Assembly: GCA_021847625.1 (NCBI GenBank)
Contig: JAJZQK010000012.1
Span: forward strand, 1-17,433
Length of the DNA stretch: 17,433 nucleotides
Reading direction: 5' to 3'
Source: Chloroflexota bacterium
Lineage (GTDB): Bacteria > Chloroflexota > FW602-bin22 > JAMCYS01
The notes beneath the pieces are model-generated. The model searched no databases. It worked only from the letters and a program-made list of their open reading frames with translations, and was not told where the DNA came from. This document shows positions 1,704 to 17,433 of this stretch, one piece after another (within the stretch, counting starts at the first letter, position 1; every line of letters begins with the position of its first letter). The position numbers and the translations under genes are program-made.

Positions 1704-1783
1704 CAGTAGATCCTCCCCCTGGGCCTCCGGCAATGCTTGTCTCATTGGCGCGCCGCCAAAGTGCTACCCAAACCTAACCAAGG

Positions 1784-3388: not shown

Positions 3389-3413
3389 CCCAGCCCCCCC
3401 AGAAGATGTGTTA

Positions 3414-3425
3414 GTAGTATACTAC
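3414..3425. promoter_or_regulatory. 12-bp perfect palindrome GTAGTATACTAC, copy 1 (candidate operator/-10 region)
   Basis: This perfect palindrome stands 26 bp upstream of the TTG start of the ArnT-like gene and contains TATACT, a good -10 hexamer for leftward transcription. TTGCAG lies 15 bp further upstream on that strand, which is short for a -35 spacer. The identical 12-mer recurs at 6222-6233. Overlap of a dyad with a -10 element suggests a repressor site, but this is inference. Confidence 0.4.
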
Positions 3426-3438
3426 CCAATCCACTGCT

Positions 3439-3481
3439 GCAACAGTGGCAGAGCGGTTAAGAGGCGGCCTTGAACGCCGAT
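3439..3481 (+). other. tRNA-Ser(UGA)-like 5' half, degenerate relic
   Basis: In the gap between two minus-strand genes the plus strand reads like the 5' half of a class II tRNA. A 7-nt acceptor-like GCAACAG is followed by TGGCAGAGCGGTTAAG (the D-arm region of many tRNA-Ser genes) and then an anticodon arm with GCGGC and GCCGA flanking the 7-nt loop CTTGAAC. That loop would carry anticodon TGA (Ser). Four of five anticodon-stem pairs form, but the third D-stem pair fails. No T-arm (TTCRANY) and no complement of the acceptor strand follow within 100 bp, so this cannot be a functional tRNA. A 6-bp inverted repeat (CCACTG-6 nt-CAGTGG, 3431-3448) overlaps its start. It could be chance resemblance. 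Confidence 0.25.
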
Positions 3482-3555
3482 ACGCGCATAAGGACGTTGA
3501 CGAACGGGCGAGGGCGGGCCCTGAATATCGCGGAGCTCACCCCCGCGTCAGCCTG

Positions 3556-4803
3556 CTATCCAACCCCACCGTTCTGGGCATGATGACTGTGGGCATCTTG
3601 GTCTACGCTTTGAGCCCAGGTGGCCCTTGATAATGGGAAGCCCCGCCAAGCAAGGACCGCCGTGATGGCTGCCAGGGAAAGGAGCCACAGATGGCCAGCA
3701 GGTTGGATGGCGGCAAGCACCGAGGCTATCGGAGGGGCCGTGCCGCTAGCCCTATGCACGAAGGCCATGGTTGTTTCCATTGTCATGTTCACGAGCGGTA
3801 GCACGTATGAGGCGCCAACCGTAGCGGCAATCGCCCAATACCTCGTTTCACGATGCCGCATCAGGTCAACGACTAGTGGCAGAGCGAGCACCGTGTAGTA
3901 CGACCATGCGCTAGGCATGGCAACCAACAGCGCCACCGGGCCGGCCTCTGGCCGGAGAATGGCGAGCGCGACCAGCGCCCCAATGGACAGTATGATTGCT
4001 ATGGGCAGTGCCGCCTCTGGCCGATTGAAGACGGGCGTTGCGTCTGTCGCACCCCCGAACAGCCGCAGGAGTGCTCCGTAAGGGGCGCTGTTGAGACCCA
4101 TCTGCACGTACTTGCCCGACACCTCTGGAAGCACCTGCGCGAAGTACCGCATAAGACCGGCTGGTCCGACTGTCAGAAGATTGCCGATCTGACCGGCAAG
4201 AAAGACAGCCCCCGCGACAAATACCAACCTGAAGCGACCCCGAGCCAGAAATGGGAGCAAGAGGAGTGCAGGATAGAACTTCATGATGGCGGCGATGCCC
4301 AGCCACATCCCCGCCCGGGTGTCCTGCTCTTCGCTTGCCAGTCGCCAGCCGAGCATCAGCATCGCTAGGATGAGGATCTCATACTGCCCGATGAAGAGTG
4401 TGTACCAGATGGGCGGCCATGCGCTGAGGGCCAGGCTCGCCTGGGTGGACAGGCCGAGCCAGCGGCCGATAGTCAAGAGTGCAACGACGTTTAAGGCAAG
4501 CAGCAGCAAGACGATTGCGGGAAACGGAAGTAGTGTCAGCGGCATAGCCAGTAGCGACAGAAGGGGAGGATGGGGATTAGGGTGCGGGAAGTTGTTGGTC
4601 TCTACTGGGAAGTAGCGAGCGGACAGATTGGTTGTCGGTGTGAAGATGTCGAGACCATCGCGAAGTGCCAAAGCGGATAGGTACTCCTGCTGGACATCCT
4701 TCCCATACGCGAGCGGTGGCAGGCTCCCGAAGACCACGATGGCGAGTGCAATTCCCGCAATGAACACAAGCATCAGGTTGACTGCCTTCTCACGCTGCCG
4801 CAT
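3556..4803 (-). CDS. GT87 family (DUF2029) membrane glycosyltransferase, paralogue B
   Basis: The 415-aa product is a polytopic membrane protein with about 10 or more hydrophobic helices. After the first helix (about residues 9-28) comes the loop LAYGKDVQQEYLSALALRDG. D36 there occupies the position of the catalytic Asp of GT87 polyprenol-phosphate-mannose mannosyltransferases such as PimE. A second loop contains NNFPHPNPHPPLLSLL, closely matched in the divergent paralogue at 6401. The expected role is extracytoplasmic transfer of a sugar, probably mannose or a similar hexose, from a polyprenyl-phosphate donor. I chose the ATG at 4803 because CGGAGAG lies 5 nt upstream and it overlaps the stop of the upstream GT87 gene by only 14 bp. 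A GTG at 4863 would overlap by 74 bp and has no ribosome site. The acceptor is unknown. Confidence 0.9.
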   Translation of the reverse strand: MRQREKAVNLMLVFIAGIALAIVVFGSLPPLAYGKDVQQEYLSALALRDGLDIFTPTTNLSARYFPVETNNFPHPNPHPPLLSLLAMPLTLLPFPAIVLLLLALNVVALLTIGRWLGLSTQASLALSAWPPIWYTLFIGQYEILILAMLMLGWRLASEEQDTRAGMWLGIAAIMKFYPALLLLPFLARGRFRLVFVAGAVFLAGQIGNLLTVGPAGLMRYFAQVLPEVSGKYVQMGLNSAPYGALLRLFGGATDATPVFNRPEAALPIAIILSIGALVALAILRPEAGPVALLVAMPSAWSYYTVLALPLVVDLMRHRETRYWAIAATVGASYVLPLVNMTMETTMAFVHRASGTAPPIASVLAAIQPAGHLWLLSLAAITAVLAWRGFPLSRATWAQSVDQDAHSHHAQNGGVG

Positions 4804-6094
4804 ACGCTCTCCGTTGACGCAGAACTGCCACGCCGGTCCAGAGGAGGATTGCCAATCCGGCACAACCCAGCGAGGTTACCAGTAGGGCTGCAACCCTGCC
4901 AAGTACCAGGCCAGCGCCCTCGCCCGCGGTCAGAAGCCAAGCGATGAGACCGGTCGGAGCGGGCACGGAAAGCAAGACCACAGCCAGCAGGAAGAGCCGT
5001 AAGATCGAGCGACTGGCCACCTCCCCCTCCCTGAAGCGCGCCAGCCAGACAAGGCCAGGCAGGTACAGAAACACCAAGTAGTGCGGCCACGTGATCGGGG
5101 ACGCTAGCAATATTGCCGGAATCAGAGCCGAAATCTCCATGTCCGCCGTCCGGCCGTTGGAAGGTTGGCGGTCGCAGCCTCTCAACGCGTAGACGAGCAC
5201 CGCAAGGGCCAACACTGCCGCGACAGCAGACTGCGGAAAGAAAGCAAGTACCTGCCCTGCGGGGTCTTCGGGCAGGACGACGGGAGCCTTGTACACCAGG
5301 CCGAACACCGAGGCATTGCCCAGGCCGTCATAGTATTGGCTCAACTTCGGTAGGATGTCTCGGTAGTAGGTTAGTATCTGCCCCGGTCCGAGGGGGAATG
5401 CTCCTAGAAGCGTGAACAGGACAAACGAGGCTCCCGTCGCGGCCAGCGCACGCCAGTTACGTTGCCTAAGAAAGTACAAGGCTAGCGGTGCCGGGAACGG
5501 CTTCAGCGCACAGGTTAGCCCGAGCAGCCAGCCCGCGGCGCCGTACCAGCCTCGCCGGTAGAAGAACCAGGTGAAGGTGATCAGTAAGAAAAGCAGTCCG
5601 GTCACCTGCCCGAAGAGGACCTGGTGATGGAGGGGGGCGAAGGAGGCAAGGGCGGCGGTAACCAAGGGCAGAGCGGCCAACGGGATGCGCAGCCCAATCG
5701 TTCGATAAATGACCAGTACGGCTAATCCAATGCACGCCAGCGACAGCAGGCTCCACGACCACCAGGCCATTCCGTATTCCATACCGGCGAACGGTAGCAT
5801 AATAAGCTGGAACACAGGTGGATATGGCGCCGAGTCGGTCCACATCTGCGTGCCCGCGGCGACGGCCCTTTCAGCTAAGTCGGAATAGGCGCTTCTGCCC
5901 TCCAGCACTGCCCTGGCCGCTAGGTAGTACTGTGTGAAATCAGTTGCCGAAGAGGGAGAGGACAGTGAGTCAATGAGCCTGGTGAATGACACGGCAATTA
6001 GGCCGAGCGCGGCCAGTCCCACCAGCACAATGGCCAGGTTCGGGAGATTGACGCGGCCTGTGGTCTTCGGTTTGGACACCGCGGATCCACCCAC
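4790..6094 (-). CDS. GT87 family (DUF2029) membrane glycosyltransferase, paralogue A
   Basis: This is a polytopic membrane protein of about 434 aa. The first helix is NLAIVLVGLAALGLIAV, followed by the loop SSATDFTQYYLAARAVLEGR with the conserved Asp of the GT87 family (residue 52 from this start), then YPPVFQLIMLPF and many further helices. It is the first gene of the leftward cluster and overlaps the next GT87 gene by 14 bp, a sign of translational coupling. The start is uncertain: I chose GTG at 6094 because GGAGG lies 9 nt before it. TTG at 6112 is also open but has no ribosome site, and GTG at 6079 has a GGTGG. By family it transfers sugars from polyprenyl-phosphate donors outside the membrane. 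Its loop motif is less like paralogues B and C than those two are like each other. Confidence 0.88.
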   Translation of the reverse strand: MGGSAVSKPKTTGRVNLPNLAIVLVGLAALGLIAVSFTRLIDSLSSPSSATDFTQYYLAARAVLEGRSAYSDLAERAVAAGTQMWTDSAPYPPVFQLIMLPFAGMEYGMAWWSWSLLSLACIGLAVLVIYRTIGLRIPLAALPLVTAALASFAPLHHQVLFGQVTGLLFLLITFTWFFYRRGWYGAAGWLLGLTCALKPFPAPLALYFLRQRNWRALAATGASFVLFTLLGAFPLGPGQILTYYRDILPKLSQYYDGLGNASVFGLVYKAPVVLPEDPAGQVLAFFPQSAVAAVLALAVLVYALRGCDRQPSNGRTADMEISALIPAILLASPITWPHYLVFLYLPGLVWLARFREGEVASRSILRLFLLAVVLLSVPAPTGLIAWLLTAGEGAGLVLGRVAALLVTSLGCAGLAILLWTGVAVLRQRRAYAAA

Positions 6095-6112
6095 CCTACG
6101 AAGCCTCCACAA

Positions 6113-6400
6113 CGGCGGTGCTCATCTGCCGACCGCAAAGGGAGCCTCGGAAGCTTACATGATTGACTCACTACCTCGACGAGCTTCATGCCGCAATAGT
6201 AGCGAGTTCTCGGTCCCTCTGGTAGTATACTACGGTAGCAGTTGGTCTACCAGCAGGTTGAACGCACGGTCTGGTACGCCAAGGCGGCACCCGCGCAACC
6301 GCCGCCTGCTGTGCTGGAGCAGGGGCGTCACTGGCCGTTGGCTGGTGGAGAGACGACCTGTTGAACGCGCAGGGCATCATCCATATGGAGTGCAAACGGC
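6113..6400. other. Divergent intergenic region between GT87 paralogues A and C
   Basis: This gap of about 290 bp separates the leftward and rightward glycosyltransferase genes and should hold the promoters of both. I see no gene of its own; a short open frame starting at 6189 on the minus strand has no domain and runs into paralogue A. Its notable content is the palindrome at 6222-6233 and the adjoining inverted repeat. I found no convincing -35/-10 pair for the rightward gene. Confidence 0.6.
6222..6251. promoter_or_regulatory. Palindrome GTAGTATACTAC, copy 2, with adjoining GGTAG/CTACC inverted repeat
   Basis: The 12-mer at 6222-6233 is identical to that at 3414-3425. It is followed directly by GGTAG (6234-6238), 8 nt, then CTACC (6247-6251). 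Counting G6221, GGTAG or CTACC-like half-sites recur four times within about 31 bp. The TATACT inside could serve as a leftward -10 for paralogue A, leaving a 5' leader of about 120 nt. The arrangement is what a dimeric regulator shared by the two glycosyltransferase transcripts would bind; this is inference. Confidence 0.4.
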
Positions 6401-7792
6401 ATGAGTTCGGGCCCTACGGCCTCTAGCCTGTTGGCGATTGTCGTCCGTGCCGAAACTCGGCCTGCCAGGATGCTGAGGCTAGCCCTCATCGTGGTTCTCT
6501 CCTCGTATGTCGTAATTTCCTTGTATGGGGCGGTCGTATCGTTGTTCCCGCCTTACGTGTATCTAAAGGATTTCATCCAGGAGTATCTCCTGGCAAGAGC
6601 GCTTCTTTCTGGAGTCGATCCCTATCTGCAATTGCCCGCGCTGACCACGCTGTTCCTTGGTCCGTTGCCGAACCTTGTGTTTCCCCACCCAAGCCCTCAT
6701 CCCCCGCCAGTGGCGGTTCTGTGCCTTCCTTTCGCTTTGCTGGACTATCGACAGGCGGCGCTGTTATGGATGATTCTTCAGCTCACATGCCTGTTCGCGG
6801 CTTTCCGTCTTCTTGCCGGCATGTGGTACGTCCGTCGCGGCATAGCGGTGGCAGGTGTGGCGGCGTTGCTCACACTCGGCTGGGCCCCTGTTCTCGCCGA
6901 CGTTCTAGTTGGTCAGATGGGTATCATTCTGCTGTTGCTGGCATCTCTGGCCTGGCGGGAATTACGTTTGCGTAAGCAGGTCAGAGCGGGCCTATTGATC
7001 GGGGGTATGCTTTCTCTTAAACTGCTCGGTTGGCCACTGGTGGTCCTGCTGTTGATCCGGCGGGAGTGGCGAGCAAGCTTAGCAGCTGTGTCCGCTTGGC
7101 TAGGTTTCAACGGCATCGCGGCGCTTCTCGTGGGCTTCGATGTTGTTGTCCGCTACTACACGGAAGTTGGTTCAGCTGTCTTTGCCCTATACCGTGCGCA
7201 CGAGAGGAACATATCGCTGTGGTCGGTTGGCTGGAGGCTATTCGACGGCACGGGGTCTCCCGTGGTGGCCGGGCTGACTGCCCCACCGCTGTTTGCGTCT
7301 ACCGTTCTGGCGCAGCTGGTGTCCTATGGTCTGCCGGCCCTCTTCAGCGTCGGCGGCCTTGCCCTCACGGCGAGGACACGCAGGCTGGACACGGCGTTCT
7401 CCATTCTGTTGTGCGTGAGCATACTCGTTAGCCCCATCGCTTGGATGCACTACTTGTCTCTCGCGCTGCTCCCGCTGGCGGTCTGCCTGAAGCACCTGAT
7501 GAGGCGCGGCTTCCCAAGGCCGAGCACGTATATTGGCGCCGCCATAGCATTCTCCTGGTTTGTTGCCCCTGCCCAGTTGGACGCACTGGCGCTGCGTCTA
7601 GGGGGTGGAGACCCCGCGCAGATCGGTCAGGTCAGCGTTCCGCTGGCCGCGAGCCTTGTCACGTTGGCGCCGACTCTCGGCCTCCTCCTGCTCATCGTAT
7701 TGTTGTGGTCGCTGGACCGCGGTCTGCCGCCGGACGGCGACGAGGGTACGATAGTACGGCAAATGGACAAGGGAAAACCTGCGATCCTATAG
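6401..7792 (+). CDS. GT87 family (DUF2029) membrane glycosyltransferase, paralogue C
   Basis: The 463-aa polytopic membrane protein starts at ATG 6401, with GGAG 10 nt upstream. The first helix (about 25-48) leads to VYLKDFIQEYLLARALLSGV, with D57 at the catalytic-Asp position of GT87 enzymes, then FPHPSPHPPPVAVL. Both loops closely match paralogue B (KDVQQEYLSALALRDG and FPHPNPHPPLLSLL), so B and C probably arose by duplication. A central cluster of Arg/Lys between helices marks cytoplasmic loops. The C-terminus is short and polar. It is divergent from the leftward cluster and probably belongs to the same pathway, transferring sugars from polyprenyl-phosphate carriers outside the membrane. 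Its stop codon overlaps the -35 element of the next promoter. Sugar and acceptor are unknown. Confidence 0.9.
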   Translation: MSSGPTASSLLAIVVRAETRPARMLRLALIVVLSSYVVISLYGAVVSLFPPYVYLKDFIQEYLLARALLSGVDPYLQLPALTTLFLGPLPNLVFPHPSPHPPPVAVLCLPFALLDYRQAALLWMILQLTCLFAAFRLLAGMWYVRRGIAVAGVAALLTLGWAPVLADVLVGQMGIILLLLASLAWRELRLRKQVRAGLLIGGMLSLKLLGWPLVVLLLIRREWRASLAAVSAWLGFNGIAALLVGFDVVVRYYTEVGSAVFALYRAHERNISLWSVGWRLFDGTGSPVVAGLTAPPLFASTVLAQLVSYGLPALFSVGGLALTARTRRLDTAFSILLCVSILVSPIAWMHYLSLALLPLAVCLKHLMRRGFPRPSTYIGAAIAFSWFVAPAQLDALALRLGGGDPAQIGQVSVPLAASLVTLAPTLGLLLLIVLLWSLDRGLPPDGDEGTIVRQMDKGKPAIL

Positions 7793-7819
7793 ACACTCGA
7801 CAAGTTCTTACTGTATAAT
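7790..7819 (+). promoter_or_regulatory. Sigma70-like promoter for the regulator pair
   Basis: TAGACA at 7790-7795, an 18-nt spacer, and a perfect TATAAT at 7814-7819. The start point would be about 7826, leaving a leader of about 315 nt before the ATG at 8142. Confidence 0.6.
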
Positions 7820-7905
7820 TCCTGCGCGGGGATCGGGGAGTCCACGGGGCGGCTGCTCCTTCTATTGTCTTGTTACCACATGGGCGGCCCGGGTGTTGGG
7901 CTATG

Positions 7906-8092
7906 TAGGATCTGACAAGTGCAACATCGCTTTGATTTGAGGTTGCCTATCCTAAGAGCACATGCCTGTCGACGGGCGGTCATGCGTTGGTGCGCGACTC
8001 CGAGCACGTGGCAATCTGCCTGCTTTCGACGTGCTCCCCTTCTTCCTACGCGGTGAGGCGGTGTAGTTCCTGGTCGTACAGGAATGACCTAC
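7906..8092 (+). ncRNA. Structured 5' leader RNA with three hairpin regions (candidate cis-regulatory element)
   Basis: The 349 bp between the GT87 gene and the response regulator hold no supported gene but contain ordered inverted repeats. Element A: TAGGAT (7906-7911) pairs with ATCCTA (7949-7954) and encloses GCAAC (7921-7925) pairing with GTTGC (7942-7946). Element B: an 8-bp perfect pair GAGCACGT (8002-8009) with ACGTGCTC (8029-8036), enclosing GGCA (8010-8013) with TGCC (8017-8020). Element C: TTCCTG (8067-8072) with CAGGAA (8079-8084), flanked by GTAG (8063-8066) and CTAC (8089-8092). A ribosome site AGGAGA follows 9 nt before the start codon. I do not recognise a known riboswitch consensus, including the c-di-GMP and T-box classes. 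The pairings are seen; RNA function is inference. Confidence 0.4.
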
Positions 8093-8141
8093 CCGAGCGA
8101 GGTTATCTGCCGGCTTGATTTAGGTACAGGAGAAATAGGAC

Positions 8142-8825
8142 ATGGAGAATATCAGGATCTTGATCGCGGATGTCCACCCGATCTTCAGGCAGGGCCTGCG
8201 GGGTATCCTTGCCGAGCAGCCGGATATGGAGATCGTGGGCGAGGCGGCGGATGGCAACCAGGCCGTCGATCTCGCCAGCGGCCTCGCTCCCGACGTCGTC
8301 CTCGTCGAGGCCCAGATGCCTGGCAAGGACGGCCTCGAGGTGGCCAAGCAGGTGAAGACGCAGAACCCCCGCGCGGGCGTGATCCTCCTCACCGCCCAGG
8401 ACGACGAGGAGCAGCTCTTCCAGGCCATCAAGGTGGGCGCGGCCGGCTACTACCTGAAGGACATCGAGCCCGACGTCCTCGTCGAGGCCATCCGCCGCGT
8501 CTCCAACGGCGAGTACCTGATCAACGAGAGCGTCCTCACCAAGCCGCTCGTCGCCTCCCGCGTCCTCAAGCAGTTCCGCGACCTTGCCCTCGCCGGCCAG
8601 GATGTCGAGCCCCTCTTCGTCCCCCTCTCCGCGCGCGAGATCGAGGTGCTGGAGTACATCGCCCGCGGCAACAGCAACAAGGAGATCGCCCGTGCCCTCA
8701 AGATCAGCGATCAGACCGTGAAGAACCACATCACGTCGATCCTCCGCAAACTGGCCGTGAACGACCGCACCCAGGCCGTGGTCTACGCCCTGCGCCACGG
8801 CTGGATCAAGATGCACGAGGTTTAG
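8142..8825 (+). CDS. NarL/DegU-type response regulator with degenerate receiver (phospho-Asp replaced by Glu)
   Basis: The 227-aa protein has a receiver fold at residues 4-120 and a LuxR-type helix-turn-helix at about 160-222 (LSAREIEVLEYIARGNSNKE, then IARALKISDQTVKNHITSIL), which looks intact. The receiver is atypical. The acidic pair, usually DD, is D10-V11 (ADVHP). The phospho-acceptor Asp of LLMDxxMPxxDG is Glu: VVLVEAQMPGKDG, E56, codon GAG at 8307-8309. The conserved Thr (T84, LLTA) and Lys (K106, YLKD) remain. Loss of the Asp should prevent normal phosphorylation, and Glu can mimic the active state, so it may bind DNA constitutively or respond to another signal. The start is set by AGGAGA 9 nt upstream. 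The kinase-like gene begins at the very next base after its stop. The likely target is the pilus locus downstream or its own promoter; this is inference. Confidence 0.93.
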   Translation: MENIRILIADVHPIFRQGLRGILAEQPDMEIVGEAADGNQAVDLASGLAPDVVLVEAQMPGKDGLEVAKQVKTQNPRAGVILLTAQDDEEQLFQAIKVGAAGYYLKDIEPDVLVEAIRRVSNGEYLINESVLTKPLVASRVLKQFRDLALAGQDVEPLFVPLSAREIEVLEYIARGNSNKEIARALKISDQTVKNHITSILRKLAVNDRTQAVVYALRHGWIKMHEV

Positions 8826-9920
8826 ATGTCGCCGGCTGCCGATAGCCCGGGAACCTTCGAATCGATAAGCCGTGAGCTTACTGCTACTGTCGCCGACGGC
8901 CGGGCCCAGCTTGCCCAGCTGCAGCGCCAGCAGCGGGAGCTTGGCACGCTCGTCCGCCAGATCGAGGGCGAGCTGCGCCTGGCGGGTACCCGCCAAGCAG
9001 AGATCGAGGACAGAATCAAGGCCGTCGTGGCCTCCCCGGGCGGCCTGAACGCGGCCGAGGTTGCCGAGGCTTACGCGGCGCTGGCCGACGCCACTACTCG
9101 CCACAGCCTCATGCAGGTTCAGCTGGATAGCCTGCGCCAGCGTGGCCAGTGGTTGGCGGAGCACAGGGGCCAGCTCGCTCAGTTCGTCGACCTCTTCGAA
9201 CGCCTCGACGGCCTGCCGCTCCGCGCGACCGAGCCCCCGCGGCCAGAAGCGCCGAACCCCTCGCCTGCCGCCCCGTTGGCGGCCCGGGAGCTCTCCCGGC
9301 AAGTGGTAGCAGCCCGCGAGGATCTCAGCGCCTGGCTGTCGAAAGAGCTGCGCGATGGTCAGGTGCAGACGTTCAGCAACCTCATCCTCCAGGCGGAGAT
9401 TGTGCGCCGCCTCATCGCTCGCGACCCGGCGAAGGCGGAAGCGGAGGCGCGCTCGCTCAAGACCTCGCTGACCGAGGCGATGGCGGCGGCGCGCCTCCTC
9501 GTCTCCGGGCTGCATCCCCCCGCCCTGCGCGAGGTGGGCTTCCAGGCCGCCCTGCGCCGCTACGTCGAGGACGCGGCGGGCCGCCTCGGCGCCCGGGTCC
9601 AGCTGCGCCTCCCCGGGCGCAACGTCGCCCTGCCGAGCGGAACGGAGCTGGCCCTCTTTCGCCTCGTGCAGGAGAGCCTGCGCCTCGCCCAGGTAGCGCT
9701 GATCGTGGCCGAGGTCGAGGTTCAGCTGGCCGTGGACGAGGCCAAGGCCGAGCTGTCCATCCGTGTGGAAGGGCGGCCGTCGCCTGGCGCCCGGACCGGC
9801 ACAGGCGGGAACGTGCTCACCACCTACGCCCAAGCCATCGGCGGCGAGTTGCAGGCCGAGGGGCCGGATGGGCGCGGCCTTACCGTGCGCGTCGTCGTGC
9901 CCCTCGTAATGGCCGAGTAG
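8826..9920 (+). CDS. DegS-like cytoplasmic sensor histidine pseudokinase
   Basis: The 364-aa protein has no membrane segment. Residues 12-125 are Gln/Glu/Leu/Arg-rich and predicted coiled coil, like the DegS sensor region. A Pro-rich linker follows (131-150). Residues 155-250 align with the HisKA_3 dimerisation domain (DLSAWLSKELRDGQVQTFSN, later LLVSGLHPPALREVGFQAAL), but the phospho-acceptor His of ELHDG is Arg (R176, codon CGC at 9351-9353). In the ATPase-like part (about 255-364) the N-box QEALNN reads QESLRL (both Asn lost at 286-287), and the DxGxG box is replaced by VEGRPS (314-319). It should therefore neither bind ATP normally nor autophosphorylate. It begins at the base after the regulator's stop, so the two are certainly co-transcribed. 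It may act as a protein-binding partner controlling the regulator without phosphate; that role is inference. Confidence 0.88.
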   Translation: MSPAADSPGTFESISRELTATVADGRAQLAQLQRQQRELGTLVRQIEGELRLAGTRQAEIEDRIKAVVASPGGLNAAEVAEAYAALADATTRHSLMQVQLDSLRQRGQWLAEHRGQLAQFVDLFERLDGLPLRATEPPRPEAPNPSPAAPLAARELSRQVVAAREDLSAWLSKELRDGQVQTFSNLILQAEIVRRLIARDPAKAEAEARSLKTSLTEAMAAARLLVSGLHPPALREVGFQAALRRYVEDAAGRLGARVQLRLPGRNVALPSGTELALFRLVQESLRLAQVALIVAEVEVQLAVDEAKAELSIRVEGRPSPGARTGTGGNVLTTYAQAIGGELQAEGPDGRGLTVRVVVPLVMAE

Positions 9921-9986
9921 CCCTGCATCGCCCTGGGGGCGACCCTCCCTTCACTCGTTCTTCACTTTTACCCCATTTTATTCCTA

Positions 9987-10015
9987 TTGCCTATGCAGGT
10001 ACCAGCCCATATAAT
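9987..10015 (+). promoter_or_regulatory. Sigma70-like promoter for the flp pilin genes
   Basis: TTGCCT at 9987-9992, a 17-nt spacer, and a perfect TATAAT at 10010-10015. The start would be near 10022. It lies in the 208-bp gap after the pseudokinase, within an AT-richer stretch, and leaves a leader of about 107 nt. Confidence 0.6.
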
Positions 10016-10017
10016 GG

Positions 10018-10044
10018 CTAGTGGACAGTAGGTAACTGCCCTAG
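10018..10044 (+). other. Bulged inverted repeat at the 5' end of the flp transcript
   Basis: CTAG, GG and CAGT (10018-10029, with single bulged bases at 10022 and 10025) pair with ACTG, CC and CTAG (10035-10044) around the loop AGGTA. It sits at the predicted transcription start, so it could be a regulator site in DNA or a 5' stabilising hairpin in RNA. Neither is proved. Confidence 0.3.
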
Positions 10045-10128
10045 GCGACTAGCGAAGGGATGGCTGGCCGCGTGGCGGTCGCCATTGCCGACGCGAAATC
10101 GCCGGCAAATACGGGGGAAAGGAGGTAA

Positions 10129-10308
10129 ATGAACGTGGCGTATCTAATGTCGCTTCTCCAGTCGGTTCGGCGGGAGGAGGAAGGCCAGGGTCTGGTCGAG
10201 TATGCCCTCATCCTCGTGCTCATCGCCATCGCGGTGATCGTCATCCTCGGGCTGCTCGGAGAGCAGATCTCGACGACCTTCAGCACGGTCGTGTCCGGTC
10301 TCAAGTAG
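10129..10308 (+). CDS. flp: Flp-family type IVc prepilin (59 aa), first copy
   Basis: This short gene encodes the major pilin type of Tad systems. A 19-residue basic/acidic leader ends in REEEG and is followed by QGLVEY. That matches the Flp processing motif G-XXXXEY, with cleavage after G19 and the conserved Glu and Tyr at mature positions 5 and 6. A hydrophobic segment of about 20 residues follows (ALILVLIAIAVIVILGLLG) and then a short polar tail ending SGLK. The mature pilin would be 40 aa. AAAGGAGG lies 3-4 nt before the ATG, strong but close; an in-frame GTG at 10135 is an alternative. It is the first gene after its promoter, 105 bp ahead of a second pilin gene. A TadV-type prepilin peptidase is needed but is not in the window. 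Confidence 0.92.
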   Translation: MNVAYLMSLLQSVRREEEGQGLVEYALILVLIAIAVIVILGLLGEQISTTFSTVVSGLK

Positions 10309-10413
10309 GGCGCGGGCATTGGCGAGGGATGTTGCATCCTTGGCCGGTGCCCGGCGGGCCACGTATGGTCTTCGCGAGGGCGAAGCGGGTGGCTCGGCAG
10401 GCAGGAGGTTGAC

Positions 10414-10572
10414 ATGGGGCGAGTAGCGAATGACGAGAAAGGCCAGGGGCTCGTCGAATATGCACTGTTGTTGGTCCTGGTAGCCGTCGCGCTGTTGGTG
10501 GCTGTTCTCGCCCTGGGTAACGGTTTGTCTAGCACGTACTCTGACATCGTATCGAACATCGCGTCCCTCTAG
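10414..10572 (+). CDS. flp: Flp-family type IVc prepilin (52 aa), second copy
   Basis: A second small prepilin has a 10-residue leader MGRVANDEKG, cleavage expected after G10, then QGLVEYALLLVLVAVALLVA and a polar tail ending NIASL. The six residues around the cleavage site (QGLVEY) are identical to the first pilin, but the leader, the helix and the tail differ, so this is a diverged paralogue, not a recent copy. The mature length is 42 aa. GGAGG lies 5 nt before the ATG, a near-ideal ribosome site. A strong hairpin 213 bp downstream probably ends the pilin transcript. Which of the two is the major fibre subunit cannot be told from sequence. Confidence 0.92.
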   Translation: MGRVANDEKGQGLVEYALLLVLVAVALLVAVLALGNGLSSTYSDIVSNIASL

Positions 10573-10784
10573 GTCGCGGTGAGTGAGCAGCAGGTCGAGC
10601 GTGGTCCCGCCCCTCGGGGGTGCCGGGCTGCGTCGCCGACATAGGGCGTTTCCGCCGTCGTGGATCATATTATCCGATGGGCTTAACATTTTGTTGATGG
10701 GCAAGCATTTAGTCGGAGGAAACGCGTCAGGCTGGGAAGACTCGATACGATCGGTGGTGGGGCTGGTGGGGAGCGCGACTGGCA

Positions 10785-10824
10785 GCGGGGACCCTATTGG
10801 CAAGATAGGGTCCCCGCCATTTGT
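10785..10824 (+). terminator. Strong hairpin, terminator or attenuator after the flp genes
   Basis: GCGGGGACCCTAT (10785-10797) pairs perfectly over 13 bp with 10805-10817 around the 7-nt loop TGGCAAG. The following CATTTGTG is only moderately U-rich. It sits between the pilin genes and the cpaB promoter, so it probably ends or stabilises the pilin mRNA and limits read-through into the assembly genes. Confidence 0.65.
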
Positions 10825-10889
10825 GTCGCGAACGGTGGCATTTCTGTAGTCGGCTGGTAATCTTCGTGAAGGAATGAGCCTTTGACCAG

Positions 10890-10918
10890 CTGACACGTGA
10901 GCGGTTGTGTAGTAGAAT
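10890..10918 (+). promoter_or_regulatory. Sigma70-like promoter for the cpaB-tad operon
   Basis: CTGACA at 10890-10895 (5 of 6 consensus bases), a 17-nt spacer, then TAGAAT at 10913-10918 (5 of 6). The start would be near 10925, about 33 nt before the cpaB ATG. Confidence 0.55.
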
Positions 10919-10957
10919 GATAGGGACAGACTCGGCAACCGACAGGAGGTATGGCGG

Positions 10958-11725
10958 ATGGGGCGTCGACGGGGCGGTATAGTCCTTATCGTCTTTGGTG
11001 TGCTCTTGGCGGCCGTGGTGGGCGGCGCGGTGTTTATGTTGGCGCAGCGGACGGCGGAGCCGGCCAAGGCCGAGGATACGACCCAGGTGGTCGTGGTGCT
11101 CTCGGATATTGGTGAGCGCTCGGTCATCTCCGCCGCCTCGATCGGCATGGCGGAAGTGCCGACGCGCCTCGCGCCGGCGACGGCAGTGCGTAACACGGCG
11201 GACGCCGTGGGCAATATGGCGCTGGCCGCGATGTACCCCGGCGATTACGTGCTGAGCGACCGCATCGCCAAGACGAACGGCGAGAGCGGCTTCGCCTTTA
11301 TGCTGGACGAGGGCCATGTGTTGGTGACCTTCCCAATGTCGGACATCGTGTCCGGTGGGGCTGTGCGGCAAGGGGATACGGTCGACCTGCTGATCACCCT
11401 CGACACCTCCAAGGAGGATCCCACGGCGCCCAAGGCGATCACCCAATTGACGATGCAGGACCTGAAGGTCGTCAGCGTGGGCACCGGCCAGGCTCAGAAC
11501 CAAGCCAACCAGGGGACCGCCACTACCTCCACGGCGGCCAAGATCTCCGGGCAGGTTGTCGTCTTCGCCGTGCCGCGGCAGGACGCTTTGGTTCTGAAGC
11601 ACCTCAAGGACTCGGGCGCCAAGATCGAGATGGCGCTGCGCGCCGCCGGGGACACGCAGGTGTACACGACGGAAGCCGTGGTGATGCAGTCGCTGATCGA
11701 TCGCTTCAACATCCAGGCTCCGTAG
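10958..11725 (+). CDS. cpaB: CpaB/RcpC-family Flp pilus assembly protein
   Basis: The 255-aa protein has a basic N-terminus MGRRRGG, one membrane anchor (about residues 7-28) and an extracytoplasmic part. An SAF-like domain at about 45-105 includes VVVVLSDIGERSVISAASI and MYPGDYVLSDRIAKTNGES. An RcpC-type domain follows, with VLVTFPMSDIVSGGAVRQGD, VDLLITLD and a C-terminal VVFAVPRQDALVLKHLKDSG. CpaB proteins stabilise the Tad apparatus outside the cytoplasmic membrane and in diderms contact the secretin; no secretin gene follows here. A Thr/Asn/Gln-rich insert lies at about 175-195. AGGAGG stands 8 nt before the chosen ATG; the ATG at 10951 is out of frame. It is the first gene of the assembly operon. 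Confidence 0.92.
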   Translation: MGRRRGGIVLIVFGVLLAAVVGGAVFMLAQRTAEPAKAEDTTQVVVVLSDIGERSVISAASIGMAEVPTRLAPATAVRNTADAVGNMALAAMYPGDYVLSDRIAKTNGESGFAFMLDEGHVLVTFPMSDIVSGGAVRQGDTVDLLITLDTSKEDPTAPKAITQLTMQDLKVVSVGTGQAQNQANQGTATTSTAAKISGQVVVFAVPRQDALVLKHLKDSGAKIEMALRAAGDTQVYTTEAVVMQSLIDRFNIQAP

Positions 11726-11782
11726 ACGCGGCGATGAAGTAGGTTGGGCCACGGCCCGGCGCAACTAGCGGGTTGGGGAATT

Positions 11783-13060
11783 ATGGCAGACGACCAGAGA
11801 ATCATCCGGGTAGTGATTGCCGACGATAGCGACTCCGCGCGGCTCAGCGTCCACAAGCTGCTGTCACTGGAAGAGGCCATTGCCGTCGTCGGCGAAGCGC
11901 GTGATGGCAACGAGGCCATCGCGCGGGCGAGGGAACTGCGGCCGGACGTGCTGTTGATGGACATGCACATGCCGAATCTGGATGGCGTCGCCGCCACGGA
12001 GACCATCGTGGCCGAGGTGCCCGGCGTGGAGGTCATCCTCGTCTCGGTCGTGGACAGCCCGGAGACGCTGCGTGCGGCGATGTTGGCGGGCGCTCGCGAT
12101 TACCTGGTGAACCCGTTCACTCCCGAGGAGCTGGCGGCGAGCATCCGCCGGGCCTACGAGTTGCGCGGGCCCCAGGCGCCGCTTGGCCTGGCCGTCGAAG
12201 GCCCCAGCGGGTCGGAGGGCTCCGGCGGCAACGGCGAGGGGTGCCTGATAGCCGTTTGCGGGCCCAAGGGCGGTATCGGCCGCACGACCGTTGCCTGCAA
12301 CCTGGCCGTGGCTCTGGCGAAGAACCACGGGCGCAAGGTAGCGTTGCTGGACGGCTGCTTCAACTTCGGCGATGTCGGCACGGCGATGAACCTGCGTAGT
12401 AGCCTAGGCATCGGCGACCTGGCGTCCGCCCAGCCGGACGAGATCGACCTCCAGATGGTGGAGGAGGTCTTGGTGGCGCACTCGTCGGGGGTGAAGGTGC
12501 TGCAAGCGGCCGCTCGCCCGGGGAAGGACGACGGCGTTGGCGAGGCAACCTTGCGGAAGATCGTCGGCGAACTGACGTCCGCCTACGAGTACGTGATTGC
12601 CGACCTGTCGCCTTCGCTGCGGGATACCGACCTTGCCTTGCTCGACGTGGCCACGAAGGCCGTCCTTCTGTATTCGCCGGAAATGGCCGCCATCAAGGAC
12701 CTGAAGCTCTTCCTCGAACTTTCGCAGGGCCTGGGATATCCACGCACCAAGTTCTTGCCGGTGGCCAACCGGATGGGCGCGCCTGGGGGGGTGCGCGTGC
12801 AGGATGTGCAATCCAATCTCAACATAGAGACGGTTCTCTGCATCCCCGACAACCCCCGTGTTGCCAACTTCGCGCTCAACAAGGGCATGCCTTTTGTGCT
12901 CGCCAACCGTGACAGCGCCATTGCCAAGAGCCTCGTGGAACTGTCGGACTTGTTGCAGAGGCAGGCCGTGCCGTCGCAACCCAAGGCCACGGAGACGGCC
13001 AAGAAGAAGGGTAGAGGATGGCTGCCGTTCGGGCGCAAGAAGAGCGCGAGCGCGGCCTAG
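11783..13060 (+). CDS. cpaE: CpaE/TadZ-like protein: receiver domain fused to MinD/ParA-type ATPase
   Basis: The 425-aa protein combines a CheY-like receiver (residues 8-127) with a ParA/MinD-like ATPase (about 154-400) and a Lys/Arg-rich tail. The receiver keeps D14-D15 and the phospho-acceptor D60 (LLMDMHMP), with S88, but the usual Lys is Asn (YLVNPF, N110). The deviant Walker A reads CGPKGGIGRTT: the signature Lys K162 is kept while the P-loop Lys is Arg (R167). The Walker A' region is LLDGCFNFGDVG and Walker B is YVIADLSPSL. TadZ/CpaE proteins localise the pilus machine, often to a pole, and many have atypical ATPase motifs. I chose the ATG at 11783, with GGGG 5 nt upstream, over a TTG at 11744. 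It lies between cpaB and tadA, as in many Tad operons. Confidence 0.92.
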   Translation: MADDQRIIRVVIADDSDSARLSVHKLLSLEEAIAVVGEARDGNEAIARARELRPDVLLMDMHMPNLDGVAATETIVAEVPGVEVILVSVVDSPETLRAAMLAGARDYLVNPFTPEELAASIRRAYELRGPQAPLGLAVEGPSGSEGSGGNGEGCLIAVCGPKGGIGRTTVACNLAVALAKNHGRKVALLDGCFNFGDVGTAMNLRSSLGIGDLASAQPDEIDLQMVEEVLVAHSSGVKVLQAAARPGKDDGVGEATLRKIVGELTSAYEYVIADLSPSLRDTDLALLDVATKAVLLYSPEMAAIKDLKLFLELSQGLGYPRTKFLPVANRMGAPGGVRVQDVQSNLNIETVLCIPDNPRVANFALNKGMPFVLANRDSAIAKSLVELSDLLQRQAVPSQPKATETAKKKGRGWLPFGRKKSASAA

Positions 13061-13112
13061 GGGTCAGTTTTCCGTAGTTGTCGCTTAATTTGACCGATGC
13101 CAGGAGAGTGCC

Positions 13113-14492
13113 ATGTCGCTACTAGGAAGGATCGAGGGCAGTCCACCGCCGAATGCCTCGTCGACTTCTGGAAATGACACACTGCGCCGTTCGACGATGT
13201 CCAGTCCCCGGGAAGGGGCCCGCGAACTGACGGCGGACCTCAAGTCGCTCGTCCAGAACAAGCTTATTGCCGAGCTCGATCCGCGCATGGACCTGTCCGA
13301 CCGCGCTAGGGTAGAGCGCACCATCGAGGAACTGTACAACGCAATCCTGGCCGAGGAGAGCATTATCCTCACGCGTGTCGAGCGTTCGCGGCTCTTCGAA
13401 CAGGTCATCGCCGAGATTCTTGGCTACGGCCCCATCGATCCCCTTCTGAAGGACGAGAGCATCACCGAGGTGATGGTCAATGGCCCGAAGAACGTGTACG
13501 TGGAGCGCAAGGGTAGGATCCAGAAGATGGATATCAAGTTCGAGAGCGACTCACATGTTATGCGGGTCATTGACCGGATCATCTCCCCGCTGGGTCGACG
13601 TTGCGACGAGACGCAGCCGATGGTCGATGCCCGCCTCCCAGACGGGTCGCGTGTGAACGCCATTATTCCCCCGCTGTCGCTGGTGGGTCCGGTGCTCACC
13701 ATTCGTAAGTTCGCCAAGACGCCCTTGACGGTCGATGATCTGATCTCCTTCGGGACGTTGACGCAGGAGGTCGTCGATTTCCTCAAGGCGTGCGTGAGCG
13801 CCAGGCTCAACGTCTTGATCGCCGGCGGCACCGGCTCCGGTAAGACGACTCTACTGAACGTGCTGTCCGGGTTCATTCCCGACGACGAGCGAATCGTCAC
13901 TATTGAGGACGCGGCAGAGCTGCAGCTGCGCCAGGACCACGTCCTTACGCTGGAGGCGCGTCCGCCCAACATCGAGGGCAAAGGCCAGGTTACGATCCGC
14001 GACCTGGTGATCAACGCCCTGCGCATGCGTCCCGACCGGATAGTGGTCGGCGAGTGCCGTGGCCGTGAGGCCCTGGATATGCTGCAGGCGATGAACACGG
14101 GCCACGATGGGTCGATGACCACCCTGCACTCCAACAGCCCGCGCGACTCGTTGGCACGTCTGGAGACGATGGTGCTGATGGCGGGCATGGAGCTGCCACT
14201 GCGGGCGATCCGGGAGCAGATTTCTTCGGCAATGGATCTGCTGATCCACCAGGAGCGCATGAAGGACGGGTCGCGGCGCGTGGTGAGCGTGACGGAAGTG
14301 CAGGGCATGGAGGGCGAAACGATCGTCCTGCAGGACATCTTCGCGTTTGAGCAGACGGGCATTCAGGAAGGGCGTATCCTAGGCCAGTTGCGACCCACGG
14401 GGATGCGGCCGAAGTTCATGAACAAGCTGGAGGCATCAGGCATATACCTGCCGCCGTCCGTGTTCGGCATTCGCGCGGGTAAGTTCTGGTAG
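13113..14492 (+). CDS. tadA: TadA/CpaF-family secretion motor ATPase
   Basis: The 459-aa protein is a full-length type II/IV secretion ATPase. A variable N-terminus is followed by the TadA N-terminal domain (about 60-200, with ILGYGPIDPLLKDESITEVM and VDARLPDGSRVNAIIPPLSL). The RecA-like motor carries Walker A GGTGSGKTT (K244), the Asp box IVTIEDAAELQL, Walker B RIVVGECRG (E314) and the His box GHDGSMTTLHSNSPRD. All catalytic motifs are intact. It should form a hexamer on the cytoplasmic face of the TadB/TadC platform and drive extension, and in CpaF-type systems also retraction, of the Flp pilus. AGGAGA lies 5 nt before the ATG. It is the only full motor ATPase in the window. Confidence 0.96.
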   Translation: MSLLGRIEGSPPPNASSTSGNDTLRRSTMSSPREGARELTADLKSLVQNKLIAELDPRMDLSDRARVERTIEELYNAILAEESIILTRVERSRLFEQVIAEILGYGPIDPLLKDESITEVMVNGPKNVYVERKGRIQKMDIKFESDSHVMRVIDRIISPLGRRCDETQPMVDARLPDGSRVNAIIPPLSLVGPVLTIRKFAKTPLTVDDLISFGTLTQEVVDFLKACVSARLNVLIAGGTGSGKTTLLNVLSGFIPDDERIVTIEDAAELQLRQDHVLTLEARPPNIEGKGQVTIRDLVINALRMRPDRIVVGECRGREALDMLQAMNTGHDGSMTTLHSNSPRDSLARLETMVLMAGMELPLRAIREQISSAMDLLIHQERMKDGSRRVVSVTEVQGMEGETIVLQDIFAFEQTGIQEGRILGQLRPTGMRPKFMNKLEASGIYLPPSVFGIRAGKFW

Positions 14493-14517
14493 AAGGTAAG
14501 GGGCTGCGGGGGGGAAG

Positions 14518-15471
14518 ATGCTCGCTATAGGACTGGCTGCGGCCGCGGCAATTGGCATTGTGCTGGTGTTCGTCGGGATCTCGCGCTTGATGGCGCCAGA
14601 TGTGGACGTCAACGCCCGGCTGGATCAACTGGCGACGAGCCCTGCCGCCGTACGCACGGCGTCGACGACTTCGCGCGTTTCGGGACGAATGGTGGCGGGC
14701 CTAGACAAGGCGGTCGCCGGGCGGGGTTTCGCGACCCAGCTCGCCCAAGACCTGGCCCGGGCGGACATCAAGCTGACCGTTTCGGAGTACATTGCTGTCA
14801 ACATCCTTGTCGTCATCGGGGTTGCTGCTCTTGCCTACTTTTCGACCCGCAGTATTCCCGCCGGGGCGGTGTTCGGTCTGTCTAGCCTCTTCTTGCCCCG
14901 GCTGTACGTAGGCATGCGTCAGCGCAACAGGCTCAATTCGTTCAATAATCAACTCTCCGACACTTGCGAGATGCTATCCAACTCTCTTCGTTCCGGCTAC
15001 AGTCTCCTCCAGTCGATGGAGATGGTGGCACGGGAGGGGCCGTCGCCTACGTCCGATGAGTTCCAGAGGGTGGTGCGGGAAGTCGGCCTCGGGCTGAGCG
15101 CCGAGGAGGCGTTGGCGAACCTCGTGCGACGCATCGCCAGCGAGGACCTTGACCTCGTCGTCACGGCCATCAACGTTCAACACGAGGTTGGTGGTAACCT
15201 GGCCCAGATACTCGACAGCATCAGCCACACCATACGCGAGCGTGTCAGGGTCAAGGGCGAGATCAAGACGCTGACGTCGCAGGTCAGCTGCAGCGGTAAC
15301 GTGGTGAGTCTATTGCCGGTCGCCCTGTGCGTGGTGCTATATATCATCAACCCGGAATACATGTCGCAGCTGTTTGAGCCCGGGTTGACGCTCTGCCTGC
15401 CTGCTGGTGCGGTGGGCGGTATCCTGTTAGGCTGGCTGGCAATGCGCAAGATCACACAAATCGAAGTGTAA
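14518..15471 (+). CDS. tadB: TadB-family inner-membrane platform protein
   Basis: The 317-aa protein has an N-terminal helix (about 3-22), a pair of helices at about 95-130 (YIAVNILVVIGVAALAYF, then AGAVFGLSSLFLP), a cytoplasmic T2SSF domain (about 140-250) and two C-terminal helices. The T2SSF domain contains LSDTCEMLSNSLRSGYSLLQ, EVGLGLSAEEALANLVRRI and EVGGNLAQILDSISHTIRER. With TadC it forms the membrane platform that TadA engages. The ATG at 14518 has GGGGGGAAG just upstream. It follows tadA by 25 bp and precedes tadC by 7 bp, a tight operon. The usual segment after the T2SSF helices has two Cys-Ser pairs (SCSGN), an unimportant oddity. Confidence 0.94.
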   Translation: MLAIGLAAAAAIGIVLVFVGISRLMAPDVDVNARLDQLATSPAAVRTASTTSRVSGRMVAGLDKAVAGRGFATQLAQDLARADIKLTVSEYIAVNILVVIGVAALAYFSTRSIPAGAVFGLSSLFLPRLYVGMRQRNRLNSFNNQLSDTCEMLSNSLRSGYSLLQSMEMVAREGPSPTSDEFQRVVREVGLGLSAEEALANLVRRIASEDLDLVVTAINVQHEVGGNLAQILDSISHTIRERVRVKGEIKTLTSQVSCSGNVVSLLPVALCVVLYIINPEYMSQLFEPGLTLCLPAGAVGGILLGWLAMRKITQIEV

Positions 15472-15478
15472 GGAGACG

Positions 15479-16411
15479 ATGCCAATGGACTGGTTGGCTA
15501 TGGGCCTTGCAATGGGGGCAGCGGCAAGCGTACTCCTGGTCGTCTCCGGTGGCTACGTCGTAAGGGCAGAGGCCGTCAAGGTTCGCACCAGACTGGATGA
15601 GTTCGCCGCCAGGCCCAGGACTCTGGAGGAACTCGAGCTCTCGCAGCCCTTGTTTGACCGGGTGGTCCGCCCTGGTCTGTCCAAGTTGTCGGACCTCCTC
15701 ACCCGGCGCCGGCCGGAGCATACCTTGGCGGAGGTACGCCACAAGCTGGCTGTGGCGGGGAATCCGAAGGATCTGGAGGCAGCCGATTTTCTGGGCTTGA
15801 AGGCGCTGGCGGCGTTCTTGCTGGGCGTCATCGTTCTGGTGATCGTGTTTTCTCGCATGACGCTTCTGATGACCTTGGGCATAACGGCCGCTTGCGCCGT
15901 CGTCGGGTACATGCTGCCCGACCTGTGGCTATCGAGACTGATCAGCGCCCGCAAGAAAGAGATATCGCGGGCGCTGCCCGATGCCCTCGACCTCCTGACG
16001 ATCAGCGTGGAGGCCGGCTTGGGCTTTGATGCGGCGATGAACAAGGTGGCTCAGAAGTGGAAGAATGCGCTCTCCTCGGAGTTCGGCCGCACGCTGGCTG
16101 AGATTAGAATGGGCAAGGGCCGTCGCGACGCCCTGCGCGACCTCTGCGGGCGGACCGACGTGGGCGATATGAACACGGTGATCGCCGCGGTAATCCAGGC
16201 CGACCAACTCGGCGTTAGCATCGCGAAGATTCTGCGCATCCAGGCCGAGCAGATGCGCGTGGTGCGTCGCCAGAGGGCAGAGCAGGAGGCGCATCAGGCC
16301 CCTATCAAGATGACCTTCCCCTTGGTCTTCCTGATATTCCCGGCGATGCTCGTCGTTATCTTGGGTCCGGCCCTGCTGCAAATCGGAAAGACGTTGGGCA
16401 ACGGATTTTGA
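15479..16411 (+). CDS. tadC: TadC-family inner-membrane platform protein
   Basis: The 310-aa protein has an N-terminal helix (about 5-27), a central helix pair (about 105-150), a T2SSF domain and a C-terminal helix. The T2SSF domain contains EISRALPDALDLLTISVEAG, LGFDAAMNKVAQKW, FGRTLAEIRMGKGRRDALRD and QADQLGVSIAKILRIQAEQM, the typical TadC signature. The C-terminal helix is FPLVFLIFPAMLVVILGPAL. It pairs with TadB to make the pilus platform. AGGAG is 3 nt before the ATG at 15479 and 9 nt before an in-frame ATG at 15485, so the second may be the true start. Its stop overlaps the TTG start of the DUF192 gene by 4 bp. Confidence 0.94.
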   Translation: MPMDWLAMGLAMGAAASVLLVVSGGYVVRAEAVKVRTRLDEFAARPRTLEELELSQPLFDRVVRPGLSKLSDLLTRRRPEHTLAEVRHKLAVAGNPKDLEAADFLGLKALAAFLLGVIVLVIVFSRMTLLMTLGITAACAVVGYMLPDLWLSRLISARKKEISRALPDALDLLTISVEAGLGFDAAMNKVAQKWKNALSSEFGRTLAEIRMGKGRRDALRDLCGRTDVGDMNTVIAAVIQADQLGVSIAKILRIQAEQMRVVRRQRAEQEAHQAPIKMTFPLVFLIFPAMLVVILGPALLQIGKTLGNGF

Positions 16412-16749
16412 GAGTCACCAACACCAAGCAGGGACAGGCCCTGGCAACTGATTGCGTCGAGGCGAAAGGCTTCTGGCAACGGAGCCGGGGCCTTCTTTTT
16501 CGTCCTCCCCTAGCGGAGGGGGAAGGCCTGTTGCTTACCCCTTGCCAGGCCGTGCATACCTTCCTGATGGGCTTTGCGATCGACGTGGTCTTCCTCGACG
16601 CCCGCGGGAAGGTTGTCCACCTCATCGAGGCCATGGTGCCCCAACGGATTAGTCCTATTGTCTGGCGGGCACGCAGCACGCTCGAATTACCCCCCGGCAC
16701 CATTGGGAACACGAAAACGAAGGTAGGGGATGAACTAGCCTTCGAGTGA
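16408..16749 (+). CDS. DUF192 family protein coupled to tadC
   Basis: The 113-aa protein covers most of a DUF192 domain: AKGFWQRSRGLLFRPPLAEG, the GLLLTPCQAVHTFLMGFAID motif, VVFLDARGKVVHLIEAMVP and the late strand STLELPPGTI. There is no signal peptide or lipobox, unlike many family members, so it is likely cytoplasmic. The start is TTG within TTGA, where A and the preceding TG form the tadC stop; the 4-bp overlap means translation depends on tadC. The biochemical role of DUF192 is unknown to me. Its position as last gene of the operon suggests a link to pilus function. The 3' end overlaps a convergent pseudogene by 15 bp. Confidence 0.88.
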   Translation: MRVTNTKQGQALATDCVEAKGFWQRSRGLLFRPPLAEGEGLLLTPCQAVHTFLMGFAIDVVFLDARGKVVHLIEAMVPQRISPIVWRARSTLELPPGTIGNTKTKVGDELAFE

Positions 16750-17235: not shown

Positions 17236-17238
17236 GCG

Positions 17239-17260
17239 GTAGTCTCGCGGATCATACTAC
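17239..17260. promoter_or_regulatory. Partial relative of the GTAGTATACTAC palindrome
   Basis: GTAGT (17239-17243) and ATACTAC (17254-17260) carry the two half-sites seen at 3414 and 6222, but their 5-bp arms are 12 nt apart instead of adjacent. It lies just upstream of the M20 fragment's frame on the minus strand. It may be chance. Confidence 0.15.
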
Positions 17261-17353
17261 GATTGATCGAAGGAAGAACCGCCCGCCGTTTGTCGTGGAG
17301 GCGGAAGGCTCGCCGTATGGTTTGTCTGGCAGGCCTCTGCCTTGGGCACTTGC

Positions 17354-17382
17354 TTGACGTCAGCGATCATGAGCGGTAGGAT
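17354..17382 (+). promoter_or_regulatory. Sigma70-like promoter reading off the right edge
   Basis: TTGACG (17354-17359), a 17-nt spacer, then TAGGAT (17377-17382). The region 17236-17433 contains no supported gene, so this would serve a plus-strand gene beyond the window. Confidence 0.4.
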
Positions 17383-17433
17383 GAGCGGGCGTCGGCAGCG
17401 GGCAATTGGCCGACAACCCAACGGGCCGTAGCC

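Follow-up and report, generated by a model that had tools for sequence, protein, structure and literature searches.

A regulator and a kinase-like protein, both without phosphotransfer residues, adjoin the flp/tad genes of a Chloroflexota bacterium

Introduction

How does a response regulator come to stand beside a kinase-like protein when neither keeps the residues that pass phosphate between such partners, and did the two losses arise together? The question is raised by a stretch of 17,433 nucleotides from a Chloroflexota bacterium (GenBank assembly GCA_021847625.1, contig JAJZQK010000012.1, positions 1 to 17,433 of the forward strand), hereafter the window. An initial annotation of its letters had proposed that the pair was kept under selection as a phosphate-independent switch, possibly controlling the adjacent Flp/Tad locus.

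According to the available text of a 2025 review, the phospho-acceptor His is missing in 56 of 16,025 HisKA_3 domains (0.3%) and the phospho-acceptor Asp in 3,111 of 152,269 receiver domains (2.0%), Asp-less receivers most often have Glu in its place (26%), and on/off switching of pseudo-receivers in bacteria is called a mystery (PMC12632262). The second acidic residue is replaced in about 80% of pseudo-receivers, and Glu partly activates some receivers and is alone often insufficient, as given in the accessible parts of PMC12632262 and PMC4395418. On the kinase side, the portions available describe DivL, a pseudo-histidine kinase whose retained fold can serve to bind a regulator (PMC4211667), and a dead kinase, ChrS, that can act through heterodimers (PMC9491836). 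Among the matches listed in the open-licence literature, judged by titles and the starts of abstracts, none described this locus or an adjacent pair with both losses.

Results

Two abutting genes without His and Asp beside the flp/tad genes

The features of the locus are given below; HK_dn denotes the kinase place directly after the regulator.

7790..7819, plus strand: sigma-70-like promoter 5' of the regulator (consensus scan)
8142..8825, plus strand: NarL/FixJ-type response regulator, 227 aa (Pfam; 120-relative alignment; conserved columns)
8172..8174, plus strand: V11 codon GTC (read in the window)
8307..8309, plus strand: E56 codon GAG (read in the window)
8826..9920, plus strand: HK_dn pseudokinase, 364 aa (Pfam; 7-member clade; AlphaFold model; fold match)
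9351..9353, plus strand: R176 codon CGC (read in the window)
9987..10015, plus strand: sigma-70-like promoter 5' of the first pilin gene (consensus scan)
10129..10308, plus strand: Flp pilin 1 (Pfam Flp_Fap, 33.7 bits, cut-off 32.2)
10414..10572, plus strand: Flp pilin 2 (Pfam Flp_Fap, 29.2 bits, E 7.7e-7, below the cut-off of 32.2)
10958..11725, plus strand: CpaB/RcpC (Pfam RcpC)
11783..13060, plus strand: receiver and ParA-like ATPase (Pfam Response_reg, AAA_31; alternative start TTG at 11744)
13113..14492, plus strand: TadA-type ATPase (Pfam T2SSE)
14518..15471 and 15479..16411, plus strand: two T2SSF proteins (Pfam T2SSF each; TadB and TadC by gene order)

The stop codon of the regulator (TAG, 8823-8825) is followed at the very next base, 8826, by the ATG of the kinase-like gene. 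Reading of the codons placed V11, E56 and R176 where the initial annotation had put them, and the alignments agreed that both proteins are without the phosphotransfer residues, the kinase-like protein also being without the N-box Asn and DxGxG. Its further statement that the folds, the DNA-binding domain, a predicted coil and the open frames are kept and that the genes abut was borne out by Pfam, an AlphaFold model and the codons.

The regulator matched Response_reg with 87.6 bits and GerE with 79.7 bits, and thus has the receiver and the GerE/LuxR DNA-binding domain of the NarL/FixJ type, but the phospho-acceptor Asp and a complete acidic pair are absent. E56, which lies inside the Response_reg domain, aligned with the phospho-Asp of VraR, the regulator's best match by sequence. 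The protein hence joins an Asp-less pseudo-receiver, with Val for the second Asp of the acidic pair (D11V) and Glu for the phospho-acceptor (D56E), to an intact GerE domain. T84, A85, Y103, K106, P60 and G64 are unchanged, so that the machinery by which the protein would answer to a phosphomimetic Glu is still in place.

The kinase-like protein carries a HisKA_3 domain of the DegS/DesK type (34.7 bits, cut-off 24) in which the phospho-acceptor His is replaced by R176; QESLRL (282-287) stands at the N-box, without its Asn, and there is no DxGxG. HATPase_c was not among its 5 Pfam matches at E<=10, a search in which HMMER filters drop most weak matches, while the AlphaFold model and fold matching, on this one model, indicated a catalytic-domain fold, with the VraS catalytic domain and DesK as best matches. 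A PDB sequence search gave 0 matches at E<=0.001. The protein thus comprises a predicted long coil, a DHp domain without His and a catalytic-domain fold without ATP boxes. VraS/VraR and DesK/DesR are working kinase-regulator pairs; the window resembles them in these best matches and differs in that the His and the ATP boxes are absent. Judged from their residues, His-Asp transfer between the two proteins has very probably been lost.

The consensus scan gave a third sigma-70-like promoter at 10890; altogether 5 such sites, on both strands, fell within 7700-11000, where shuffles gave 0.6 (sd 0.8). Of the 11 loci examined with a looser promoter-like pattern, four (window, L001, L005, L007) had it 5' of flp and 7 did not. 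Inverted repeats were present 5' of the regulator and of flp1 in a listing made without a control. Between pilin 2 and cpaB we observed a strong terminator-like hairpin (10785-10817; 14 pairs, then a weak T run); because it is followed by the promoter-like site at 10890, the pilins and cpaB/tad may be separate transcripts. The receiver-ParA protein, which we take to be of the CpaE/TadZ type, keeps its Asp, but inspection by eye shows Ser at the conserved Thr position (LVSVVD) and Asn at that of the conserved Lys (YLVNPF), so its receiver may also be atypical. Upstream, a five-gene glycosyltransferase run (660-7792; GT2, PMT_2 and three GT87 by Pfam, the GT87 genes being two on the minus and one on the plus strand) leaves 350 bases between the end of a GT87-type gene and the regulator. 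L001, a related locus, has three long minus-strand frames 5' of its regulator too.

The altered receiver pocket appears private to the window

We aligned the best 120 of 7444 regulator hits, window included, and surveyed the best 80 of 261 loci from genome records; the two sets overlap. D56 was present in 119/119 other relatives, the sole E being the window's own, and in 79/79 readable regulators of the surveyed loci. In L034, whose regulator gene is split, the receiver-bearing piece also has Asp by eye. The column of V11 held D in 109 of the 119. Among the sequences read, E56/V11 thus appears so far private to the window, and the claim that the two losses had arisen and been kept together was not supported by these lists of best hits. 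Because no other readable sequence has E56/V11, conservation of the altered receiver is not demonstrable. A search of viral contigs with the regulator gave 4 remote matches.

Could E56 and V11 be sequence or assembly errors in one contig? Each would be one base change from a GAC codon, going by the genetic code, and both are private to one record. We nevertheless regard errors as very improbable: that two of them should independently hit one pocket while the rest of the frame stays intact is unlikely, P0001, a relative with the same Arg, confirms the kinase side, and the regulator's cluster, P0028, has 2 member sequences, one of them read.

In the regulator tree the window grouped with P0035 (the L001 regulator), P0037 and P0041 with support of 88/82, below the tool's starred level, on an end branch of 0.15 as against 0.058-0.065 in those three. 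At columns conserved in the 36 closest relatives, a yardstick set without the window itself and therefore favouring the finding of changes in it, the window departed in 4/47 receiver columns (D11V, E26Q, D56E, R69K), 0/27 linker and 0/63 DNA-binding columns, and the 36 relatives in at most 2 receiver columns. By the yardstick of all 119 relatives the window was no outlier (2/26 receiver columns; others up to 3).

Selection was estimated as dN/dS by a Nei-Gojobori type method in our own script. Between the window and L001 the receiver gave a ratio of 0.14 and the DNA-binding domain one of 0.003, at dS of 1.6 and 1.8, which is near saturation and weakens the argument. For the receiver, other window pairs gave 0.20, L002-L010 0.10 and L002-L003 0.06. 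The receiver values of the window pairs, 0.14-0.20, are well below 1 but above those of L002-L010 and L002-L003. The kinase value (0.54, window-L001) was set aside, the sequences being only 36-37% identical. On these sequence comparisons the regulator gene is not dead, but its receiver may be somewhat looser in constraint.

The main rival to a phosphate-free function is decay of the receiver: with HK_up, the kinase 5' of the regulator in related loci, gone and HK_dn dead, the receiver would have lost its use, E56/V11 would reflect loosened constraint, and the regulator would survive as a constitutive DNA-binding protein or be on its way out. The privacy of the change among relatives and loci read, the long end branch, the further departures E26Q and R69K from conserved receiver columns and the window-pair dN/dS above that of L002-L010 and L002-L003 all speak for it. 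A dN/dS well below 1, the open frame and unchanged T84, K106, Y103, P60 and G64 speak against it, as does the placement of both changes in the pocket, one of them the commonest natural replacement. Weighing these points, we consider decay possible but rather unlikely.

The pseudokinase belongs to a clade without the phospho-acceptor His

Seven related proteins, the window's included, formed one clade with support of 100/99, all of them full-length and open. The His occurred in 0/7 (R, R, L, L, L, L and Q in its place) and DxGxG in 0/7. With the phospho-His replaced in 7/7 and the fold kept, the fold being taken from one model, these are pseudo-histidine kinases. Within the clade the coil and DHp were better conserved than the catalytic domain. 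The closest relative of the window protein was P0001 (91%), the relative sharing its Arg. That the clade as a whole acts as phosphatases is unlikely, since only 3/7 members have a complete DxxxQ.

Regulator partners were covered for the window, L001, P0150 and P0149, leaving out P0001, P0002 and P0151. The L001 regulator, which adjoins a clade pseudokinase, was read directly and has D56; P0037 and P0041, which were assigned to P0150 and P0149 because their contigs are equally long (51427 and 3438) rather than read directly, have D56 too. Because the regulator adjoining P0001 could not be read, E56 may be common to one more species. Paired conservation of E56/V11 and R176 as a clade trait was rejected, since the three other clade pseudokinases so covered go with normal regulators. 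The proposal of a paired loss kept together is half supported. Orthologues with canonical residues, which the initial annotation had named as evidence against it, were found for the Asp in all the other listed relatives and readable loci, but for the His not inside the clade. The pseudokinase would thus be an old trait of one clade, and the pseudo-receiver so far a single case.

Loss of His recurs at the downstream kinase place

In Chloroflexota the arrangement HK_up–RR–HK_dn–cpaB–cpaE was whole in 5/80 loci (best 80 of 261). HK_up and HK_dn occurred together in 6 of the same 80 (L003, L005, L006, L007, L010, L013), with cpaB downstream in five and not in L006, where the contig ends. The window pseudokinase occupies the HK_dn place, directly after the regulator and with cpaB downstream, and cpaB was downstream in 10 of the 15 other HK_dn loci of this set. 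In L006 and L032, HK_dn loci where cpaB was not seen, the view is cut by contig ends; L008, L014 and L020 have regulator and HK_dn, yet the roughly 5 kb that follow carry no tad gene. The initial annotation is supported in that the position of the pseudokinase beside regulator and tad genes recurs in relatives. There was no HK_up directly 5' of the window regulator and no kinase match upstream within the window. L001 had no kinase in front of its regulator either. When its genome, a metagenome bin that may be incomplete, was searched with an HK_up protein, all matches fell on the transmitter part of other kinases, apart from a weak one to the pseudokinase itself.

A kinase tree of 42 rows (18 of the 41 HK_up, all 16 HK_dn, two outgroups and six others of unseen gene position, labelled dn) placed HK_up and HK_dn on opposite sides of one branch (100/100). 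The His was kept in 41/41 HK_up of the best 80 of 261 loci, and in two further HK_up beyond the distance rule (L034, L039), as against 9/16 HK_dn, window included (Fisher p 4e-5, relatedness ignored). The non-His HK_dn were those of the window (R), L001 (L), L003 (R), L013 (Q) and L042, L058 and L063 (D); at least 3 changes of His state are needed on the tree, in which L003 sits on a very long branch. The HK_dn of L020 keeps the His without N-box and DxGxG. That HK_dn is dead in general was rejected: HDGPAQ was kept in the HK_dn of 14/14 further loci (L137-L150, the best profile hits in other genomes, of which L142, L149 and L143 seemingly repeat L007, L005 and L032), so the loss of His is confined to certain branches. 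The five non-His HK_dn other than the window and L001 go with D56 in 5/5. As both these and the clade regulators covered have D56, the loss on the kinase side predates the change in the receiver, where readable.

The HK_dn of L042 (6781-8034), L058 (3973-5238) and L063 (6748-8061), all tad-linked, have Asp for the phospho-His with intact N-box and DxGxG, and are a second kind of altered kinase at the same gene position. Eleven regulators (L026, L033, L043, L047, L048, L049, L057, L060, L067, L071, L077), mostly labelled Ktedonobacteria and with no adjoining HK_up or HK_dn by profile, have an acidic-pair Glu and Arg for the conserved Lys and keep D56. The L034 regulator (6001-6687) lies in two frames, through real decay or sequence error. 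L055, L058, L061 and L072 are labelled Rubrobacter or Proteobacteria, yet their regulators closely resemble those of Chloroflexota, perhaps because the bins are mislabelled or the genes were transferred.

The repeated loss of His bears on another explanation, in which the pseudokinase is the functional novelty and E56 is incidental. HK_dn would partner or inhibit the regulator or another kinase in the manner of DivL or ChrS, and the window regulator would be a minor variant of that scheme. The three clade regulators read or matched do have a normal pocket, His was lost with D56 kept in L003, L013, L042, L058 and L063 as well, the His state changed at least three times, and the available parts of the DivL (PMC4211667) and ChrS heterodimer (PMC9491836) reports offer precedents. 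This explanation leaves unaccounted for why the sole regulator with a changed pocket adjoins a dead kinase; moreover, the incomplete DxxxQ in most of the clade makes a phosphatase role unlikely, and HK_up, the obvious dimer partner, was not found in the L001 genome (a metagenome bin). We judge it unlikely.

Discussion

We tentatively prefer a phosphate-free regulator tuned by its dead neighbor. In some Chloroflexota two related kinases, HK_up and HK_dn, stand on either side of a NarL-type regulator by the tad genes. The HK_dn of the window's clade has, by its sequence, become a pseudokinase, with the coil and the regulator-docking DHp helices kept and the His and ATP boxes missing. Elsewhere in the readable clade it goes with a regulator whose phosphate pocket is intact and which probably receives phosphate from another source. 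In the window lineage the receiver then exchanged D56 for E and D11 for V, without change to T84, K106, Y103 or the DNA-binding domain. E56 may partly mimic the phosphorylated state, so that the regulator would act without phosphate, its activity depending on its abundance and on contact with the coil and DHp of the pseudokinase; the likely target would be the adjacent flp/cpaB/tad genes. As a whole chain, the phosphate-free E56 regulator, its tuning by pseudokinase binding and flp/tad as target make a credible but tentative proposal. Its weak points are that E56/V11 occurs in no other readable sequence, that dS is close to saturation and that the window is no outlier against all 119 relatives; against it, too, stand L008, L014 and L020 without nearby tad genes and, in the available text of the sources cited above, the frequent insufficiency of Glu alone.

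Known systems share single features with the window. In DivL of Caulobacter, as described in the available part of PMC4211667, the phospho-His is replaced across homologues, the kinase fold is kept and regulator binding is proposed; DivL, however, has PAS domains and reads the normally phosphorylated DivK, whereas the window has a HisKA_3 protein with a coil and an adjoining regulator that is itself without Asp. The ChrS variant of Corynebacterium glutamicum likewise lost catalysis and shapes signalling via heterodimers with a paralogous kinase, but according to the accessible text it is a laboratory-evolved catalytic-domain frameshift and the paralogous kinase still phosphorylates the regulator (PMC9491836). 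Asp-less receivers, in the portions available of PMC4395418 and PMC12632262, share Glu at the D position and replacement of the second acidic residue; the window regulator differs in directly adjoining a catalytically dead kinase and in having normal receivers as near relatives. PprAB of Pseudomonas aeruginosa is also a two-component system and controls Flp (type IVb) pili, but is described as a working system in the accessible part of PMC3510237.

Taken singly, each part is of a known kind; the interest lies in their adjacency and in an order of steps that can be read. The loci form a natural series, from a working kinase with a normal regulator (L005, L007) through a dead kinase with a normal regulator (L001) to a dead kinase with an altered regulator (window). 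It is a possible but doubtful reading that a conserved pseudokinase family beside the tad genes of Chloroflexota made a phosphorelay into a binding switch stepwise, kinase catalysis being lost first, with the phosphate pocket of the regulator still kept, and Glu for the phospho-Asp and Val for a metal-binding Asp following in the regulator of one lineage. If it is true, adjoining genes would encode a two-component pair working without phosphate passed between its members. The series bears on the order in which a phosphorelay may become a phosphate-free switch, and on whether Glu at the D position matters.
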